From Syncephalis fuscata (Eukaryota > Zoopagomycota > Zoopagomycetes > Zoopagales > Piptocephalidaceae): a stretch of 26,601 bases of DNA. The position numbers and the translations under genes are program-made. Positions 1,701 through 24,737 of this stretch are shown in pieces. Numbering within the stretch: position 1 is the first letter of the stretch; every line of letters begins with the position of its first letter. The stretch is from positions 1 through 26,601 of the forward strand of contig JAHLTZ010000110.1 of the NCBI GenBank assembly GCA_025786725.1. The letters run 5' to 3'. The notes beneath the pieces are model-generated. The model was given only the letters and a program-made list of their open reading frames with translations, ran no database searches and was not told the origin of the DNA.

Positions 1701-1818
1701 AAACTTGATATATAAATAGACTGGACGGCGTAGTTGTCAAATGGTCTTGCTTTTCACTGAGTATATACCTAAAGTGTATTGGAATAGTGGTTTGATTTCA
1801 CCACCAATGCTGATGCTC

Positions 1819-3551
1819 TTATGGTTGTGGGTTATCTGCATTTATAAAGAAAGATATTACATGTCATATAATTAATGTATAATCTATCAATATACAGTAC
1901 TACTTACTGCCTATTATATTAAGTTATTGATACACACAGTATATAGCATTTGGTCAGTACATAGTCAATTAATATACAATGCTACTTACATTCTATTAAT
2001 ATTAAATTGTTGATGAATACAGTAAATAACATTTAGTTAGTGAGTAGCCAGTTAGTATACAATACAACTTACGCTCTATTGATATTAAGTTGTTGATGGA
2101 TACAGTAAATAGCATGTAATTAGTGAGTAGCCAGTTAGTATACAATACAACTTACTATCTATTAGTAGCAAGTTATTGATACACAAAATACACAATATAT
2201 AATTAATAAATAGTCAAGTAATATACAATACTACTTGCCGCCTATTATATTAAGTTGTTGATGCGCACATTATATAGCATGTGGTCAGTACATAGTCAAT
2301 TAATATAAAATTATACTTACAATCTATCAATAATGTTGTTGATTTATAGAGTACATAATATATAATTAGTAAACGGTACATAATATACAATACACTTACA
2401 GGCTATTAATATTAAATAATTAATACAATTAGTAAATAGTATAGTTAATGTATAGTCAGTTGATATACAATATCACTTACTCACTATTAATATTAAATAA
2501 TTAATACAATTAGTAAATAGTATAGTTAATGTATAGTCAATTAATATACAATATCACTTACCGCCTATTAATATTAAATAATTAATACCATTAGTAAACA
2601 AATAGTTAATGTATAATTAGCTAATATACAATATCACTTACATTCTATTAATATTAAATAATTAATACCATTAGTAAATAGCATAGTTAATATATAGTCA
2701 GTTGATATATACTACTACTTACTGCCTATTAATAAGGTTGTTGATGCATACAATACATAACACGTAATTAGTGAATAGTTAGCTAATATACAATAGCACT
2801 TACATCCTATTAATATCAAGTTATTGATACACACAGCATATAGTATATAATTAATCAATGCTCACTTAATATACAATACAACTTACTTTCTATTAGTGCC
2901 AAGTTATTGATACATATAATACACAATATATAATTAGTGCATAGTCAGTTAATATACAATACAACTTACTTTCTATTATAGTAAATTGTAATACACACAA
3001 TACATGGTATACAATTAATTTATAAGTCAGTAACATACAATGCTACTTACTGCCTATTAATATTAAATCATTAATACACACAACACATAATATACAATTA
3101 GCCAATGCTCAATTAATGTACAATATGACTTACAATCTATTATATTAAGTTGTTGATACACACAATGTATCACATAAAATTAGCACATAGTCGGTTAATA
3201 CACAATACATCTTACCATCTATGGTATTAAGTTATGTATACACGTAATACATGTTATTAATTAATTTATAAGCCAGTAATATATAATATCACTTACCGCC
3301 TATTAGCATTAAGTTAATAATACACATAGTATATAACATGCAATTAATGAGTAATTACAGTTAATAAGCAATACAACTTACAATCTAATAGCATCATTAG
3401 TTAGAAATATTATTGGTAAGCAAATGCTATGGCATATTTATTGTTATTGCAACATACCACGACGAACTAAAGCTGGATCAGCATCCACAATGGCTGTAGC
3501 GGCTATCAAAGCCACAAAGATGGTGCAAACGACGGCAATGGAAAGCTTCAT
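1819..3551 (-). CDS. Microexon gene A: secreted six-cysteine peptide built from nineteen 3-nt exons
   Basis: Exon 1 (3551-3458, 94 nt) encodes a start Met, a hydrophobic signal peptide (TIFVA core), a likely cleavage site after Val-Asp-Ala (residue 24) and Arg-Arg at residues 30-31, and ends in phase 1 at a GTATGT donor. Nineteen exons of exactly three nucleotides follow, each between a TAG acceptor and a GTAAGT-type donor. The last exon (from 1835) carries TAA at 1821-1819. The joined frame has no stop and predicts 55 residues. The 24 residues after Arg-Arg hold six Cys spaced C-x2-C-x3-C-x1-C-x3-C-x3-C, with Lys, Arg and Asp between them. The 168-nt CDS is spread over 1,733 bp and cut by 20 introns of 72-82 nt, one a GC-AG intron (donor at 2238). 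The Arg-Arg is a plausible Kex2 site, so the microexons would encode the mature peptide. Function is unknown: effector, antimicrobial and signalling roles are all possible. Splicing is inferred, without transcript evidence. Confidence 0.85.
1908..3384 (-). repeat. Array of intron plus 3-nt exon units in gene A
   Basis: Diverged tandem units of about 80 bp. In order of transcription the 3-nt exons are 3384-3382, 3299-3297, 3218-3216, 3136-3134, 3053-3051, 2972-2970, 2889-2887, 2806-2804, 2725-2723, 2644-2642, 2564-2562, 2483-2481, 2402-2400, 2323-2321, 2241-2239, 2158-2156, 2075-2073, 1992-1990 and 1910-1908. Intron bodies resemble each other: TATTGTATATTAA-like just after the donor, CTAATTA-like in the middle and TTAATATTAATAG-like at the acceptor. 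The triplets vary while the splice signals stay constant, the opposite of a neutral minisatellite. Confidence 0.85.
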
Positions 3552-11935: not shown

Positions 11936-13092
11936 CTAAAATACTATTTTGTATTGTATGTATCTCTTCTTGACCTCTTCTTTTGATAATTCGTAGTCTT
12001 TGGTTTTAAGAATTATCTTGTACAATTTTCCAAGTACTCCCCAAAGGGTCTCGTTATAGTCATTGATTAGTGCTTTTTTCACACCTAAACTCAAATCTTT
12101 GGAGTTCAAATCAACACTGTCAGCATGAGACCTGTAGAATAGATATCCATTTTTATCTCCAACAAAGTCTAAATCAAATATCAGTGCCATTGTAATGCAG
12201 ACTAAAGTTCAATCAAACTTACTATGATCCATTTTGCTAGGCATCCAGCCTATTGTGCGCATGTATTGCAGACCTAATTGATACTATGTTATAATGCTTA
12301 TACTATTTGTGTGCCTGTTTACCTTTTGAAATTCGTTCAACATATTTCGTTGCAACTTCAATTGATATGTTTCCTCCTGCAAAGATATCTTCTAAGGCTG
12401 TGCCGCCATCGCTTTGGGTGCCCAAAAAGCATTCAAGCTTGAACTTGGGCTCAAATACTCGCTGTTTAGGTCCAGATACATATTCAGTACCTTCATAAAG
12501 CCCTGGATGCGTTTGTGAAAGCTCATAAGCATCCTGTTGTTATTCAAGCACGTTAGCAATAGTCCAATATTAAATGTGAACATACCTTAAAGAATCGGAA
12601 ACTTGGTGCTTTTACTTCGTCATCTCCGCAAATAAATTGAACTTTGCTGTTGCCTAGTCTTGATCTAGTTACAATATAACCACTTTCGTGATAGGATGCT
12701 TTTTCAATAAAAAGACCTGATATGCCGAATGCATCGTATACTCTTAGTTTTCCTTTAAATATTTCATTAACTAATGTGATTTTGAAATTTTAAAATAAAA
12801 ATACAGATTTAGGTTAGAATACAAGTTTAGTATTGTCTTTCAATCTCATTGAGATTGATTTGACGGCATAGCCGACTTGATATTGTATCATACCGTCAAA
12901 CCTTCGGATGGTTGATTCTTTCTGTCCTAAATGTTCCTTGCGCTTGTTTATTACATCCTGAATCTCTTGAGGTACTACGACAGATGATGCAACAGATGCT
13001 GAATCAGGTGGTGGGGTAGCATTTATGGCGGATACTAGTGTCGATGCAGCAACCACGAGAGCAATGAGAGGCTTGGGATTGGAAATTATCAT
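11936..13092 (-). CDS. Secreted protein with degenerate protein-kinase-like fold
   Basis: A signal peptide (PLIALVVAASTLVSAINA) starts the protein. Proposed exons 13092-12894, 12770-12586, 12533-12323, 12273-12223 and 12168-11936 join in frame to 292 residues. The middle part resembles a protein-kinase domain: GKLRVYDAFGISGLFIEKAS as a degenerate N-lobe, then TALEDIFAGG, then an alpha-E-like helix KYVERISKGLQYMRTIGW followed by PSKMDHNF where HRDxKxxN is expected. The HRD aspartate context and a clear DFG are missing, so it is probably a pseudokinase. The first intron (124 nt) and the fourth intron are the least certain: the donor at 12222 can pair with an acceptor giving 54 nt (used here) or 21 nt. 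It lies next to microexon gene B in the same orientation. The kinase reading is an inference from pattern. Confidence 0.55.
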
Positions 13093-14374: not shown

Positions 14375-17248
14375 TTATTCTAATATATAATTAAATACAA
14401 TGTTTTGCACAAAATTAGTGTATAAGCAATTATACATAATGCCACCTACTGCCTATTAGTATCAAGTTGTTTATACGCACAGTACATAGTATATGATTAG
14501 CGTATATTTAGTTGCTACGTTATGCCACTTACAGTCTATTAATATTAGATTGTTAATACGCACAATTCGTAGTATTTGATTAGCGTATATTCAATTAATA
14601 TATAGCATCACTTACTTCCTATTGGTATCAATTTGTTGTTAGATATAATATATAGTATGTATTATTAGTGAGTAATCAACTAATACAAAATAACACTTAC
14701 CGCCTGTTAATATTGAATAGTTAATATAAATGGTACATAAAACACAATTAGTAATTAGTTAATTAATGCAAAATGTAATTTACCGCCTATTAATATGATA
14801 TTGTTGATACGCGTAGCACACGGTGTGTAATTAGTGCATAATCAATTAATATAAACTATTACTTACATTCTATTAGTGTCAGGCCATTGGTATACATATG
14901 GTATATAAAGTGTAATGAGTGCATATCCTACTAGTATACAATGTCACTTACTTCCTATTAATATTAAAATATTAAATATGTATAGCTAATTAATATATGT
15001 TATCACTTACCAACTATTATAGCAAGTTGTTTGTAATATAATACATAGTATATAATTAATGTATAGTTAATTGATATACAATAACACTTACCACCTATTA
15101 CATTAAATTTTCAATACGCATATAATACATTATATAGTTGGTACATAATGAAACAGTATAAAAATCCTTACAAACTATTAATATTGAGTTGTCAGATATG
15201 CGCATTGCATAGCATGCAATTAGTGTATGAACTGTTGATATACAATGGCACTTACTGCCTATTGATATTAAATTATTTATGCCCACAGTATACAATATAC
15301 GATTAGTGCCCACTCAATTTATTTATAATAACACTTACCAACTATTAATATTGAGTTGTCAAATACGCGCATTATATAGCATGCAATTAGTGTATGTTTA
15401 GTTAATATACAGCACTGCTTACAAACTATTAATATTATGTTATTAAAGGCAATTGTATTTGATTAGCGCATAGTTAAAGCGTATAAAATAGCACTCACCG
15501 CCTATAAATATTAAATTTTTGGCAAAAGCATTGTATAAAATTTAATTAGTATAGAACTGATCAATATACAATGGCACCTACAATCTATTATATTAGATTT
15601 TGATACACCCATATAGTATATAATTAGTTTGTGCATAATCAATACATAGTTCCACTTACACCCTATGGATATTGAGTTGTTGGCAAAATTAGTAAACAAA
15701 GTATAGTTAGTACAAAGCTAGCTAGCTTGAAATGTCACTTACAGGCTATTATATTAAATTTAAATAAATAAAATACAGTTAGTACATAGCTAATTAGTAT
15801 GCAGCCTCACTTACGTCCTATTAATATTATTTTGTTGATAGATATAGCAGGCAACATGCAGTTAGTGTTTAGTTGATTATTATGAAATATTACTTACCAA
15901 CTATTAACATTATAATATCGATATTCACAGTACATAGCATTTAATTAGTGCATAGACAATTAGTATACAATTTCACTTACCGGCTATTAGTATCGATTTG
16001 TTGATGCACATAGTACATAGCATGCAATTAGTAATTAGTTAGTTAATATACAATTTCACTTACGGGCTAATAGTATTAAGTTATTGATACAGATGGCACA
16101 TAGTATACATTTAGTATGTAATCAATCAATGCACAATGTCAATTACCTCCTATTAATATTGATTTTTGGTACAAAAAGTACATTGCTTAACTCATGATTA
16201 GGTAGTGTAAAATTCCACTTACTAACTATTAATATTAAGTTATTAATATATAAGATGTGTAAGATTTGGTTAGTTTATAACTAATTGAGCTAAACTATTA
16301 CTCACGAGCTATTAATATTAAGTTAAGTACAGTGAATATATTTTAAGCAATTATAAACAAACTAATATGCAACTTCACTTACGACCTATTATTATTATTA
16401 TGTTTTATATATATATAGTAAACGACATGCAATTAGTGAGCTGTCAGTTAATATAAAATAATACTTACCGGCTATTAGTATTGATTTGTTGATACACATA
16501 GTACATAGCATGCAATTAGCGTATGATCAATTGATACACAATATCACTTACGAGCTATTAATGTTAATTTGCCATATAAAAAATTGTAAATTAAATTGCT
16601 AATTAGCATACAATTCCACTTACTTTCTATCCATGTTAATTTAAGAAATAACATTAATGAGCAACTAGATTGTTAATCAACATACAACACCACTTACTCA
16701 CTATTAATGTTAATTTGACAAATAAGACAATAATCAATTAAAATCTTAATTAACATAAGATATCACTTACACCCTATTTGCATCAATTTAGGAAATAACA
16801 CTAGCGATCAATTAAATTGTTGATCAACATATAATACCACTTACATTCTAGTAAAGTTAATCCAGTGTATTATTATTATAAACATAGTATTTTATCCACT
16901 AGTTTATAGCAAACTTACTTTTGTCCAATGATGTTGCTTGAACTATTTTACATTAACAAATAATACCTAATTAATCTACAAATAGCTATTTATAACCAAA
17001 CCTACCGGCTGTTTACATGTGTTTATCATGTTTATTACGTAGATGGCAGCCTGCTGTAAGTATCAAAATAATGGTTCATGGTAATGGCTTACCCTCTAAT
17101 ACTGCCATTAGCCAAACATAATCCTATTGCATATTTATTGTAATTTTGACATACTACGACGAATTATAGATGGTTTAGCATCCGCTATATTTATATTGGC
17201 TACAAAAGCCACAAAGATAGTAAAGACGACGACAATAAAAAACTTCAT
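14375..17248 (-). CDS. Microexon gene B: secreted four-cysteine peptide built from thirty-three 3-nt exons
   Basis: Exon 1 (17248-17155) is 94 nt and phase 1, as in gene A, and encodes a paralogous signal peptide (shared TIFVA core and Asp-Ala cleavage context) ending in Arg-Arg at residues 30-31. Two 3-nt exons follow, then a 24-nt exon (16942-16919), then thirty-one more 3-nt exons; the last exon starts at 14379 and the TAA is 14377-14375. The frame is open throughout and predicts 73 residues. The region after Arg-Arg is basic and Pro/Gly-rich in its first half, and ends with four Cys spaced C-x4-C-x3-C-x3-C, the stop following one residue after the last Cys. The 222-nt CDS spans 2,874 bp and has 35 introns of 56-84 nt. 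The 24-nt exon could instead be 18 nt by an in-frame downstream acceptor. Function is unknown; it is a likely secreted, Kex2-processed peptide. Splicing is inferred from sequence only. Confidence 0.85.
14450..17095 (-). repeat. Array of intron plus 3-nt exon units in gene B
   Basis: The 3-nt exons in order of transcription start at 17095, 17008, then (after the 24-nt exon) 16847, 16773, 16700, 16626, 16554, 16471, 16385, 16308, 16225, 16149, 16066, 15983, 15900, 15817, 15745, 15662, 15584, 15501, 15425, 15341, 15258, 15174, 15094, 15013, 14954, 14869, 14786, 14703, 14618, 14535 and 14452; each runs two bases further down. Most donors are GTAAGT; variants are GTGAGT, GTAGGT, GTAAGC, GTAAGG, GTAATT and GTAAAT. 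Most acceptors end ATTAATAG or ATTATAG, one ATTAACAG. Many units are exactly 80 bp of intron plus 3 bp of exon. Confidence 0.85.
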
Positions 17249-22202: not shown

Positions 22203-24737
22203 TTATGGTTCCAAACGCTTTGGGTCACGCGGGAATAGAGATGCCTTACGGATATTGCCCAATGAAAGGAAAAGCATTAAAACACGCTCAAGACCTGGTC
22301 AATTCATTATATAGCATTATTAATTACAATTCATGATTAAACTCGTTCAAGGCACTACTTACCAATACCACCACCAGCATGAGGAGGTGTGCCATACTTG
22401 AATGCATTAATATACGGTTCAATTGAGACTGGATCAACACCGTGTTCATCGGCACGCTTTCTCAAGAATTCCGAGTCGTGAATACGCTGGGCACCTGACA
22501 TAATTTCCTCACCACGAATGAAGAAGTCATAAGAGTTTGAATATCCCTATAATAATAATAAAGTAATTAGTAGTTGGTAATGTTAATAAATAGGTTATTA
22601 TCCTGTTGTAACATAGTTTGGATACATGATAGATACGTACAGGCATATTTGGGTCGGGCATGGTGTAGAAGGGTCGTACAGACAATGGGAATTTGTCAAG
22701 CATGTAGAAATCGGTCTTGTATTTCTCTTTGACAAGCTGGCCAAGACGACGCTCTGCTTCAGTTGACAAATCATCAAAATCGCCAATCTCGTAGCCTGAT
22801 TCACGTAGCATTGCTACACCTTCCGGATAAGTAAGACATAGAGTCTTTGGTAGATATTGTAGTGGCTCAAATGGATGCTGACGATTAACAACACCAATCT
22901 CTCGCGCATAGCGTTGATTCAAACCATCAAAGATAAATACGAATAGCTCGCCAAGTAGATCAAGCACCTTGATAGATAGACAGATTAGAATGGGTATATA
23001 GTTTAATAATTGATTCTAATATATAAATAATATTAGCTTACTTCATGATAATGTTCCTGGAAGGCCATTTCCAAATCGACACCAACAAATTCGGTCATAT
23101 GACGATGCGTGTTGGAATCTTCAGCACGGAATACTAAATAGATTACGTAGAATAAGCAGTATTAGTAGCTGTATTGGATCAACAATTTATAGTATATCTA
23201 TAACTTACCAGGAGCAATCTCAAACACTCGGTCAAAATCGGCACAGATGGCCATTTGTTTGTAGAACTGTGGTGATTGAGCAAGATAGGCAAAGGCTAAT
23301 TTGTATAGACAATAAATAGCAACTCAATAGCTTAAACTGGCTGCTTACTCTTAAAATAGCTAATCTTAAATACACTGGCACCACTTTCACTGGCAGCACC
23401 AAGAATCTTTGGCGAGTGGATTTCTACAAACTTGTTTGTAGCAAGAACTCGCGGAAAGCTCACAAATACCCGATTGGATACGGAAGATGGCTTGACCTGT
23501 AATGGTCTATCAATATAGTCATAATGGTATAATTAATAGATTAGAATGTCATTCCGTAATAATAGATTTATATGTAAAAGCAATGTACTTACGCGAAGAT
23601 CAATAACACGATTGTTAAGACGTGTATCAAGATTAACACGGCTAAACTGGCTATCTTCCTACTCATAATAGTATACATGCTGAATATAGTGGACTATTAA
23701 TAGATTTAATAGCTTATTTACCTTTTCATATTCTGCATCTGGTCGGGAAGCATCTTCAATCGAGAATGGTAGTTGAGGTACAGCTTCGCTTTCTACAAAC
23801 AACTATATCATAACAAACCTATTAATTATAACAATATAGTATAGTATAATATAGTGACTTACGGAAAGAATATGTAATTCTACATCTTGTACCGTACAGC
23901 TACGAATAGGCTCCGGTGCTTTATTGACTTGAGCCTCAACTAGAACAATCGATTCATTGGAATGCTAATATAAAATATCATAATACAAGTAATTGATCAA
24001 CCAATTAATTAATAAGTATATTTGACCAATAGTAATTTATATAATTAAATAAATTACCTTACAGCAAATTTCAACATTTTTTTGCTTACACGCTCCTTAT
24101 CGGCCACCAACAAGGCTTGTACCGTTGAATACTGGTGGCGTAGCAAGAAGAAGCACATTTTAGCACCTAAAGATCATTTAATAAATGTATCCAACTGTAG
24201 TGATTATCCACTTACCTGTTGGACGTGAATGCTGTACACGGGCCCGTAAAGAATAGTTTGACCGGCCAGATCGGCAGTAATATCCTTAATAGCAGTACGT
24301 ACTCGACTAATATAAACAAGTAGCGTTATATTAGTATATTTAGTTGTTTGTTTGTTATCATTTATTTATACATCGACATCTCTATAGATCAATGGATCAC
24401 CTACCAGTACGCTCCTGAGATTGATTCATAGGCTTTTTGCCATAGTATTCAGTAGAATAATCAACCTCGTTGGCTTCACGGGCTGCTTTGTCGGCAGCTT
24501 CTTTTGCCGCACGTTCTTGCTTCTTTGCCTCCTTTTTCCTTCTTGGCTTGAAGCTTCTTGAAGGCCTTTTGAGATCTTGTTTCCTTCGTCACTGTATATA
24601 CGTAATATTAATACCATGTAACAGTATTAATTACAACAGTTATAGTAATACGCACTCATAGAAGACTTCTTCTGACTCGTCTGGATTGCGACAACGTCTA
24701 CCGTTACAGGTGCTGCCTGTGGTTGAGATTCTGACAT
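22203..24737 (-). CDS. DPS1: Cytosolic aspartyl-tRNA synthetase
   Basis: Class IIb synthetase that charges tRNA-Asp in the cytosol. Thirteen exons are recognisable: 24737-24656, 24591-24405, 24301-24216, 24166-24063, 23964-23863, 23802-23722, 23658-23593, 23506-23349, 23295-23209, 23133-23042, 22967-22641, 22546-22363 and 22294-22203. They show a Lys-rich N-terminal extension, an OB-fold anticodon domain ([31 protein letters not shown]), motif 1 region ([15 protein letters not shown]), [13 protein letters not shown], motif 2 ([18 protein letters not shown]), [17 protein letters not shown], and motif 3 ([14 protein letters not shown]) with the usual end [10 protein letters not shown]. Expected length is about 549 residues. 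Four single-base anomalies break the conserved frame: an extra base in the run at 24533-24537 and missing bases near 24248-24250, 23455-23457 and 23442. They look like homopolymer errors in the assembly rather than gene loss, because the gene is essential and otherwise well conserved. Confidence 0.95.

Follow-up and report, generated by a model that had tools for sequence, protein, structure and literature searches.

One-codon exons in tandem: a probable family of genes for small secreted peptides in Syncephalis fuscata

Gene B lies on the minus strand of a 26,601-nt stretch of Syncephalis fuscata (Zoopagales) DNA, contig JAHLTZ010000110.1 of GenBank assembly GCA_025786725.1 (contig C14 below; the whole stretch is called the window). 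Very probably, gene B belongs to a large S. fuscata family of genes that have one-codon exons, are spliced stepwise and encode small secreted peptides. At the level of sequence, this reading is drawn from the architecture, its phase, stop avoidance, a cysteine (Cys) framework, a match to an intact paralogue, conserved splice sites and whole-unit differences between copies. The genome searched comprised 28.95 Mb in 299 contigs.

Gene B spans positions 17248-14375 and has 36 exons and 35 introns of 56-84 nt, all with GT-AG ends (Table 1). Between a signal exon of 94 nt and a last exon of 5 nt lie 33 exons of 3 nt and a single 24-nt exon; 31 of the 3-nt exons are located 3' of the 24-nt exon, from AAT at 16847 to GCA at 14452. 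The predicted product of the 222-nt coding sequence (CDS) has 73 amino acids and terminates in C-x4-C-x3-C-x3-C-K-stop. A micro-exon architecture was found, with 123 of 222 nt in exons of 3 or 24 nt, all multiples of 3. An earlier note on this DNA had given the same numbers of 3-nt exons, 24-nt exons and introns and the same CDS length, which were matched base for base. The four-Cys C-terminus and the TAA just after the final acceptor that it described were seen as well (last exon AATAA); its 44 codons were not reproduced exactly, the count being 42 residues between the RR of exon 1 and the stop.

Arrays were decoded from splice-site scores and lengths only, blind to stops and frame. For gene B, the decoder returned the identical 33 triplets and absorbed the 24-nt exon into a single 158-nt intron. 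This exon has good splice sites, with one base changed in a second copy of the gene (C267:66413), and is likely to be real, although less certain than the triplets. Within the window, all 35 matches to the pattern WATAG-N3-GTAAG lay on the minus strand and none on the plus strand, and gap lengths of 4-8 nt gave 0 matches.

Genome-wide, AATAG-N3-GTAAGT was found 3,183 times, compared with 28 times for a reversed-pattern control. The version with a 4-nt gap showed no excess (54 versus 50 in the control) and that with a 6-nt gap a small one (38 versus 19). In the 246 kb examined for WATAG-Nk-GTAAGT, 637 matches were obtained at k = 3, none at k = 4 to 8 and five at k = 2. The start of intron 1, searched with up to 3 mismatches, yielded 110 array-type starts against 1 in the control, and the signal exon of gene A had at least 150 matches (150 of 311 candidates scored); the genome-wide counts take in haplotype or segmental copies (e.g. 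C14 versus C267) and broken copies. The two such genes reported in the earlier note are both present, but are two among many. The longest run comprised 38 consecutive 3-nt exons.

Of 56 signal exons examined, 41 lead into a decodable array, 13 belong to intact genes and two are array starts that were left undecoded (C1:496442 and C2:601171). Arrays were kept for coding tests if at least 5 exons preceded the first exon that was not a multiple of 3 or was longer than 9 nt, and later exons were trimmed. This applied to 33 of 41 arrays, or 25 after removal of near-copies. In the 477 codons of these 25 arrays, phase 1, which is dictated by exon 1, contained 0 stops and 68 Cys, versus 5 stops and 2 Cys in phase 0 and 57 stops and 29 Cys in phase 2. 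Shuffling the triplets within genes (5,000 rounds) gave a mean of 22.6 stops (minimum 11) and 33.8 Cys (maximum 50). The motif C-x2-C-x3-C was observed 6 times, with a shuffle mean of 0.09 and a maximum of 2. A decoder-free replicate was based on 42 non-redundant of 58 runs of TAG-N3-G[TC][AG][AG]G. Here, phase 1 held 0 stops and 44 Cys in 337 codons, phase 2 held 22 and 11 in 337, and phase 0 held 5 and 1 in 379; 3,000 shuffles gave a mean of 14.7 stops (minimum 5) and 27.9 Cys (maximum 41). The triplets look coding by these measures. It is very improbable that the array is instead a non-coding tandem repeat (minisatellite) in one long intron, in which the splice-like motifs belong to the repeated unit and exon 1 is spliced straight to the last exon. 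Similarity of the units (mean intron identity 72-84% within four complete arrays examined) and triplets that change as fast as introns would fit such a repeat, but stop avoidance and Cys excess are confined to the phase set by exon 1, and a repeat of this kind does not agree with the match of spliced triplets to an intact coding paralogue, the conserved splice bases or the use of two triplets in a public gene model, all described below.

The 13 uninterrupted members among the 56 signal-exon genes include C228:234971 (RR-AKDQAKCNRCINECEGVPKPDAKEKCNKPGRCKAECA) and C228:174399 (RR-LDAKACQDCSNGCALSSSGNPLAAWLCSRNCKKFCE). Upstream regions of intact genes matched array genes in 8 of 9 cases tested, with best matches of 70-94% over 154-1,013 nt; upstream of intact C157:436444 no match to array genes was obtained. 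Array C239:38102 spells RR-AKDPAKCNQCMSQCYGNYP, and its spliced triplets align without gaps over 41 nt to intact C236:180587, with 0 of 2,000 shuffles as good; this pair is the best of 231 array-intact comparisons, most others being much weaker. Among the eight best of the 231, the match was equalled by none of 2,000 shuffles in three comparisons and by 2 to 16 of them in the other five. The last exon can open on AATAATCGATGG in C1:534399 and on AATAATCTATGA in gene B; intact C228:174399 there reads GAATAATCGATGG, in which TAA is the stop, and also has the C-terminal C-x3-C-x3-C of gene B. The products of array C57:476092 (RR-AVAPLAKRA) and intact C1:523550 (RR-AVEPLAKRA) resemble each other. 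The latter locus shares 98.6% identity with C1:496442 across 1,271 nt through the end of exon 1, past which C1:523550 proceeds as an uninterrupted gene and C1:496442 as an intron 1 start followed by non-array sequence. From the upstream, spliced-triplet and last-exon matches it follows that the intact gene is laid out like the spliced message. In a tree of the 56 upstream-plus-signal regions, the array/intact label switches at least 3 times on starred branches and 6 times on the best tree. Open-frame length failed to separate array from intact genes and was left unused.

One public gene model includes such triplets. Protein P0002 (BDF19DRAFT_453770) corresponds letter for letter to exon 1, CCA and AAG of C239:38102 plus read-through into the next intron; the annotation already splices two consecutive 3-nt exons. 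The view of the earlier note that gene B is a microexon gene whose frame was kept while the mature peptide diverged gains support from this model together with stop avoidance in the family, the intact-paralogue match and splice-site conservation.

Rates of change were taken from near-identical copy pairs only, since introns are interchangeable and the unit-by-unit alignment of divergent pairs is unreliable. Nine of 16 pairs examined were used (intron divergence below 3%, under 12 gaps; two of the nine include C1:534399). Splice-site bases (six per intron end) differed at 9 of 1,800 positions, about four times less than intron interiors (190 of 10,308; p = 4.5e-6); the selection of splice sites as good in one copy only somewhat lowers the number of differences to be expected at them. 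One pair contributed six of the nine differences and a second pair two; the reference copies here (C1:475325, C196:5686) decode poorly. Copies also differ by whole units: C1:534399 has two copies of ATT GCA, their introns 99-100% alike, at the place of a single TTT GCA in C1:475325, and gene A and C267:52486 have nine triplets in common and then diverge. Each such change therefore alters the peptide by whole residues.

It is unlikely, given a real architecture in the family, that gene B itself is a decaying copy which retains a C-terminal Cys cluster and lacks the C-x2-C-x3-C of several relatives. Its mature N-terminus, KAVQATSLDKKWLKTPGPLRAPVGPW, is indeed unlike that of Cys-rich members, and broken family copies exist. 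However, all 35 introns keep GT-AG ends, and relative to C267:66413, whose frame is open over the 17 units compared, 0 of 204 splice-site bases were changed as against 29 of 1,154 intron bases. The C-terminal motif held in common with intact C228:174399 also argues against decay, as do arrays free of the Cys framework, since 6 of 6 segments are open in phase 1 too (three carry a 2-nt exon, and exon 1 is not linked to them).

Several results weigh against membership of gene B in a family of coding one-codon-exon genes. The open frame of gene B alone is weak evidence, as no stop occurred in 5.8% of 20,000 shufflings of its triplets; at least 4 Cys appeared in 6.5%, and its Cys spacing or a C-x3-C variant in 0.015%. 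The case for coding in gene B draws its strength from the family, and the shuffled-triplet test suggested by the earlier note came out positive for the family, whose Cys-rich open frames the shuffles did not reproduce, although for gene B by itself stop-free shuffles are not rare. The decoder learned from TAG-N3-GTAAG units at these very loci and puts a penalty on exon lengths other than 3, so the predominance of 3-nt exons in the 41 decoded arrays (665 of 3 nt, 33 of 6 nt and 15 of other lengths) is partly built in; the independent evidence on exon length is the gap-length counts of the pattern in the 246 kb and genome-wide. Before trimming, a stop is present in 5 of the 41 decoded chains and an exon with a length not divisible by 3 in 7 of 41. 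The stop is terminal in C2:225326; those in C24:27880, C57:476092 and the pair C196/C212 resemble errors of decoding or run-off. A strong nucleotide match between array and intact gene was obtained for one array, C239, alone, and the last acceptor of gene A gives ATAACCC, not AATAATCGATGG. Broken copies were found at C2:601171, where the exon-1 donor is changed from GT to AT, and at C1:496442, with unrelated sequence after the intron 1 start. Triplets differed at 14 of 502 positions in the copy pairs, compared with 190 of 10,308 in introns (p = 0.13); purifying selection on the residues is not established, because triplets evolve no slower than introns. As to a secreted function, a Pfam search with four intact members gave nothing above cut-off and a search of PDB sequences with intact P0001 no match. 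The AlphaFold model of P0001, from one sequence, was weak (mean predicted local distance difference test score 66), with a best Foldseek match at E = 2.8. The signal-like peptide on exon 1 was part of the pattern by which the 56 exons were gathered and is no independent observation.

Overall, splicing looks constrained, and the residues appear free or fast-changing. Positive selection on residues was considered and dropped, as the difference between exon and intron divergence was not significant. The 33 exons of 6 nt are preceded by ATTAG (31) or GTCAG (2), not AATAG, and are mostly second or third in the array (one example is exon 5 of C239:38102). They are invisible in the WATAG gap counts because 31 of 33 follow ATTAG, and their junctions are perhaps older or differently made.

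The array introns are about 80 nt long, with lengths not confined to multiples of 3, and are laid out as GTAAGT, a CTRAY-like element and TTAATATTAATAG. CTRAY was present in 480 of 619 introns, versus 149 after shuffling. They appear to be normal short introns, recognisable singly. A signal-like peptide and the putative RR processing site lie on exon 1, which stops after the first base of a codon; the mature peptide would be spelled almost wholly by successive 3-nt exons, each intron cutting after codon base one. Each intron would be recognised by intron definition, and neighbours would be removed in turn, stepwise, since a 3-nt exon has no room for two spliceosomes. Were a unit gained, lost or skipped, the frame would stay intact and the chain would differ by one residue, plus the one at the joint. 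The exon with its signal-like peptide, the RR site, the Cys framework, the size of the family and the lifestyle of the fungus suggest that the peptide is secreted, cleaved after RR, disulphide-bonded and active outside the cell, most likely on the host or on competing fungi.

How the arrays arose is a separate question. Insertion of an introner-like element between the codons of an uninterrupted gene, in place of local duplication of exon-intron units, is a tentative possibility. It would account for intron similarity that is nearly flat with distance within an array, unlike simple tandem duplication, and for the base-by-base match of a spliced array to an intact gene. It leaves insertion exactly every 3 nt in one phase unexplained, and 992 of 1,142 copies of the intron 3' motif are followed by N3-GTAAG, so the motif is nearly confined to arrays. 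Moreover, block duplications exist (introns 18-19 versus 22-23 of C1:534399, 99-100% identical), and gene conversion among units could flatten the similarity gradient. Simple tandem duplication is doubtful as sole origin because intron similarity hardly falls with distance; dispersed introners are likewise doubtful as sole origin, given the confinement of the 3' motif.

Fungal introner-like elements are described as families of alike introns (PMC4457414, PMC9860276) that insert into many genes across the genome (PMC9860276). The S. fuscata introns are also alike, but they are almost confined to arrays and stand one codon apart; dispersal in unrelated genes was not found for the 3' motif, of which 992 of 1,142 copies precede N3-GTAAG and the remaining 150 went uninspected. 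Micro-exon genes (MEGs) of Schistosoma mansoni, in the available text of PMC10526429, encode secreted peptides mostly by tiny exons with lengths largely in multiples of three, of 6-81 bp (3-81 in the abstract), mostly 15 bp and 10-20 per gene, with introns of 0.1-5 kb. Secreted peptides (predicted in S. fuscata) and tiny multiple-of-three exons are common to both; unlike in MEGs, the internal exons of the fungal genes are nearly all 3 nt and the introns about 80 nt and alike, and the mostly 15-bp exons and 0.1-5 kb introns of that family were not found in the arrays. Aphid bicycle genes are a large family of secreted effectors with many microexons of one uniform phase (PMC9168663). They have in common with the S. 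fuscata genes the family size, predicted secretion, uniform-phase microexons and discovery through gene structure, not sequence; the S. fuscata microexons differ in being phase 1 and one codon long. Two protein searches, with one intact member and one decoded array protein, matched S. fuscata proteins only (4 and 1, respectively), with no homology to schistosome MEG or bicycle genes, in a search that reaches only relatives with exact 5-residue words in common. The decoded protein of C1:534399 matched intact P0001 alone. No fungal genes with tandem 3-nt exons were found described in a full-text literature search, which had most subscription papers and preprints outside its coverage; phrasings for 3-nt exons matched only unrelated dog work. 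The words 'intron' and 'exon' are absent from the available text of PMC10386755, which covers Syncephalis.

Table 1. Positions of the gene B and gene A features in the window
Feature	Position	Strand	Remarks
Gene B exon 1, 94 nt	17155..17248	-	hydrophobic signal-like N-terminus and dibasic site, MKFFIVVVFTIFVAFVANINIADAKPSIIRR, plus first base of next codon (phase 1)
Gene B exons AGG (17095-17093), CCG (17008-17006), 24-nt exon (16942-16919, less certain) and AAT (16847-16845), with intervening introns	16845..17095	-	sites recur in C267:66413
Gene B array, 30 consecutive 3-nt exons: GGT TGA AAA CTC CCG GTC CTC TTA GAG CCC CCG TTG GAC CCT GGT ATT GCG TTT TTG GCA TTT GTG TTG GAA AAT GCG GCG GAA ACT GCA; introns 56-83 nt	14450..16773	-	
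Gene B last exon AATAA (Lys, stop)	14375..14379	-	similar to stop-codon region of uninterrupted paralogues
Gene A exon 1, 94 nt	3458..3551	-	MKLSIAVVCTIFVALIAATAIVDADPALVRR
Gene A array, 19 exons of 3 nt, mature peptide DCDDCKKRCKCVTYCDKQC (C-x2-C-x3-C-x-C-x3-C-x3-C)	1908..3384	-	18 donors GT, one GC at 2238
Gene A last exon, two possible acceptors: from 1835 NNPQP-stop, from 1809 TLVVKSNHYSNTL-stop	1769..1835	-	

Gene A (3551 to about 1800) spells RR-DCDDCKKRCKCVTYCDKQC ahead of its last exon. Shuffles of its triplets were stop-free in 5.0% and reached at least 6 Cys, as in gene A, in 0.03%. Genes A and B are found again at about 50,000-67,000 of C267, in unchanged order and orientation and 13.9 kb apart (13.7 kb in the window); C14 and C267 are 93.9% identical around gene A and 97.7% around gene B. 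Because both genes recur in order at high identity, C14 looks like a second haplotype or segmental copy relative to C267. Between the two genes, positions 12814-13092 (minus strand) hold an open reading frame (ORF), MIISNPKPLIALVVAASTLVSAINATPPPDS..., that resembles the signal-peptide exon of another secreted protein and had no Pfam match. A further ORF at 22527-22967 (minus strand) weakly matches class II (D/K/N) aminoacyl-tRNA synthetases (E = 0.00039, below the curated cut-off). An Rfam search of the window gave no RNA family at the gathering threshold.

Some arrays elsewhere in the genome deviate in arrangement or content. Inverted array pairs, roughly 15-60 kb apart on one contig, were seen on C1 (475325/534399 and 576484/609265) and C2 (519033/537016); they may have arisen by inverted duplication or through the head-to-head assembly of two haplotypes. 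On C19 (5040-8210), a unit with exon TTT recurs every ~314 nt or double that distance, nine times among the matches listed, perhaps as a higher-order repeat of about four units that would encode a repeated four-residue motif. Five arrays on C2 (469188-472205, 519033-522838, 537016-540831, 653108-656125 and 656790-659807) lack the Cys framework and have 26-40 mostly one-codon exons that spell charged, heptad-like or hydrophobic sequence; three of the five carry one frame-shifting 2-nt exon. Array C2:656790 encodes QQEIDSFRPSCSEDIQKLYDQADKLHDELLVKL and is stop-free in phases 1 and 0, with many stops in phase 2; the phase of such arrays is not fixed independently because they are not anchored by exon 1.

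If transcripts confirm it, this would be, to our knowledge, the most finely chopped gene design. The one-codon exon would be a normal gene design in one genome, and single amino acids could be added or dropped without breaking the frame. Runs of up to 38 consecutive 3-nt exons raise the question of how the spliceosome handles introns whose ends are 3 nt apart. To schistosomes and gall aphids, the family would add one more case, apparently independent, in which secreted peptides came to be encoded by microexons, and its uninterrupted paralogues in the same genome would provide a built-in control. More speculatively, it could act as a genome-wide peptide diversifier, in which more than 100 gene copies with about 3,000 one-codon exons yield many in-frame secreted variants per locus through gain, loss and exchange of units in DNA and exon skipping in RNA. 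Syncephalis is a genus of ubiquitous mycoparasites, according to a reference title in PMC10386755, and its genomes are described there as depauperate in secondary-metabolite genes. A hidden secretome is indicated by the four annotated members recovered in the two protein searches, as compared with 110 array-type intron-1 starts.
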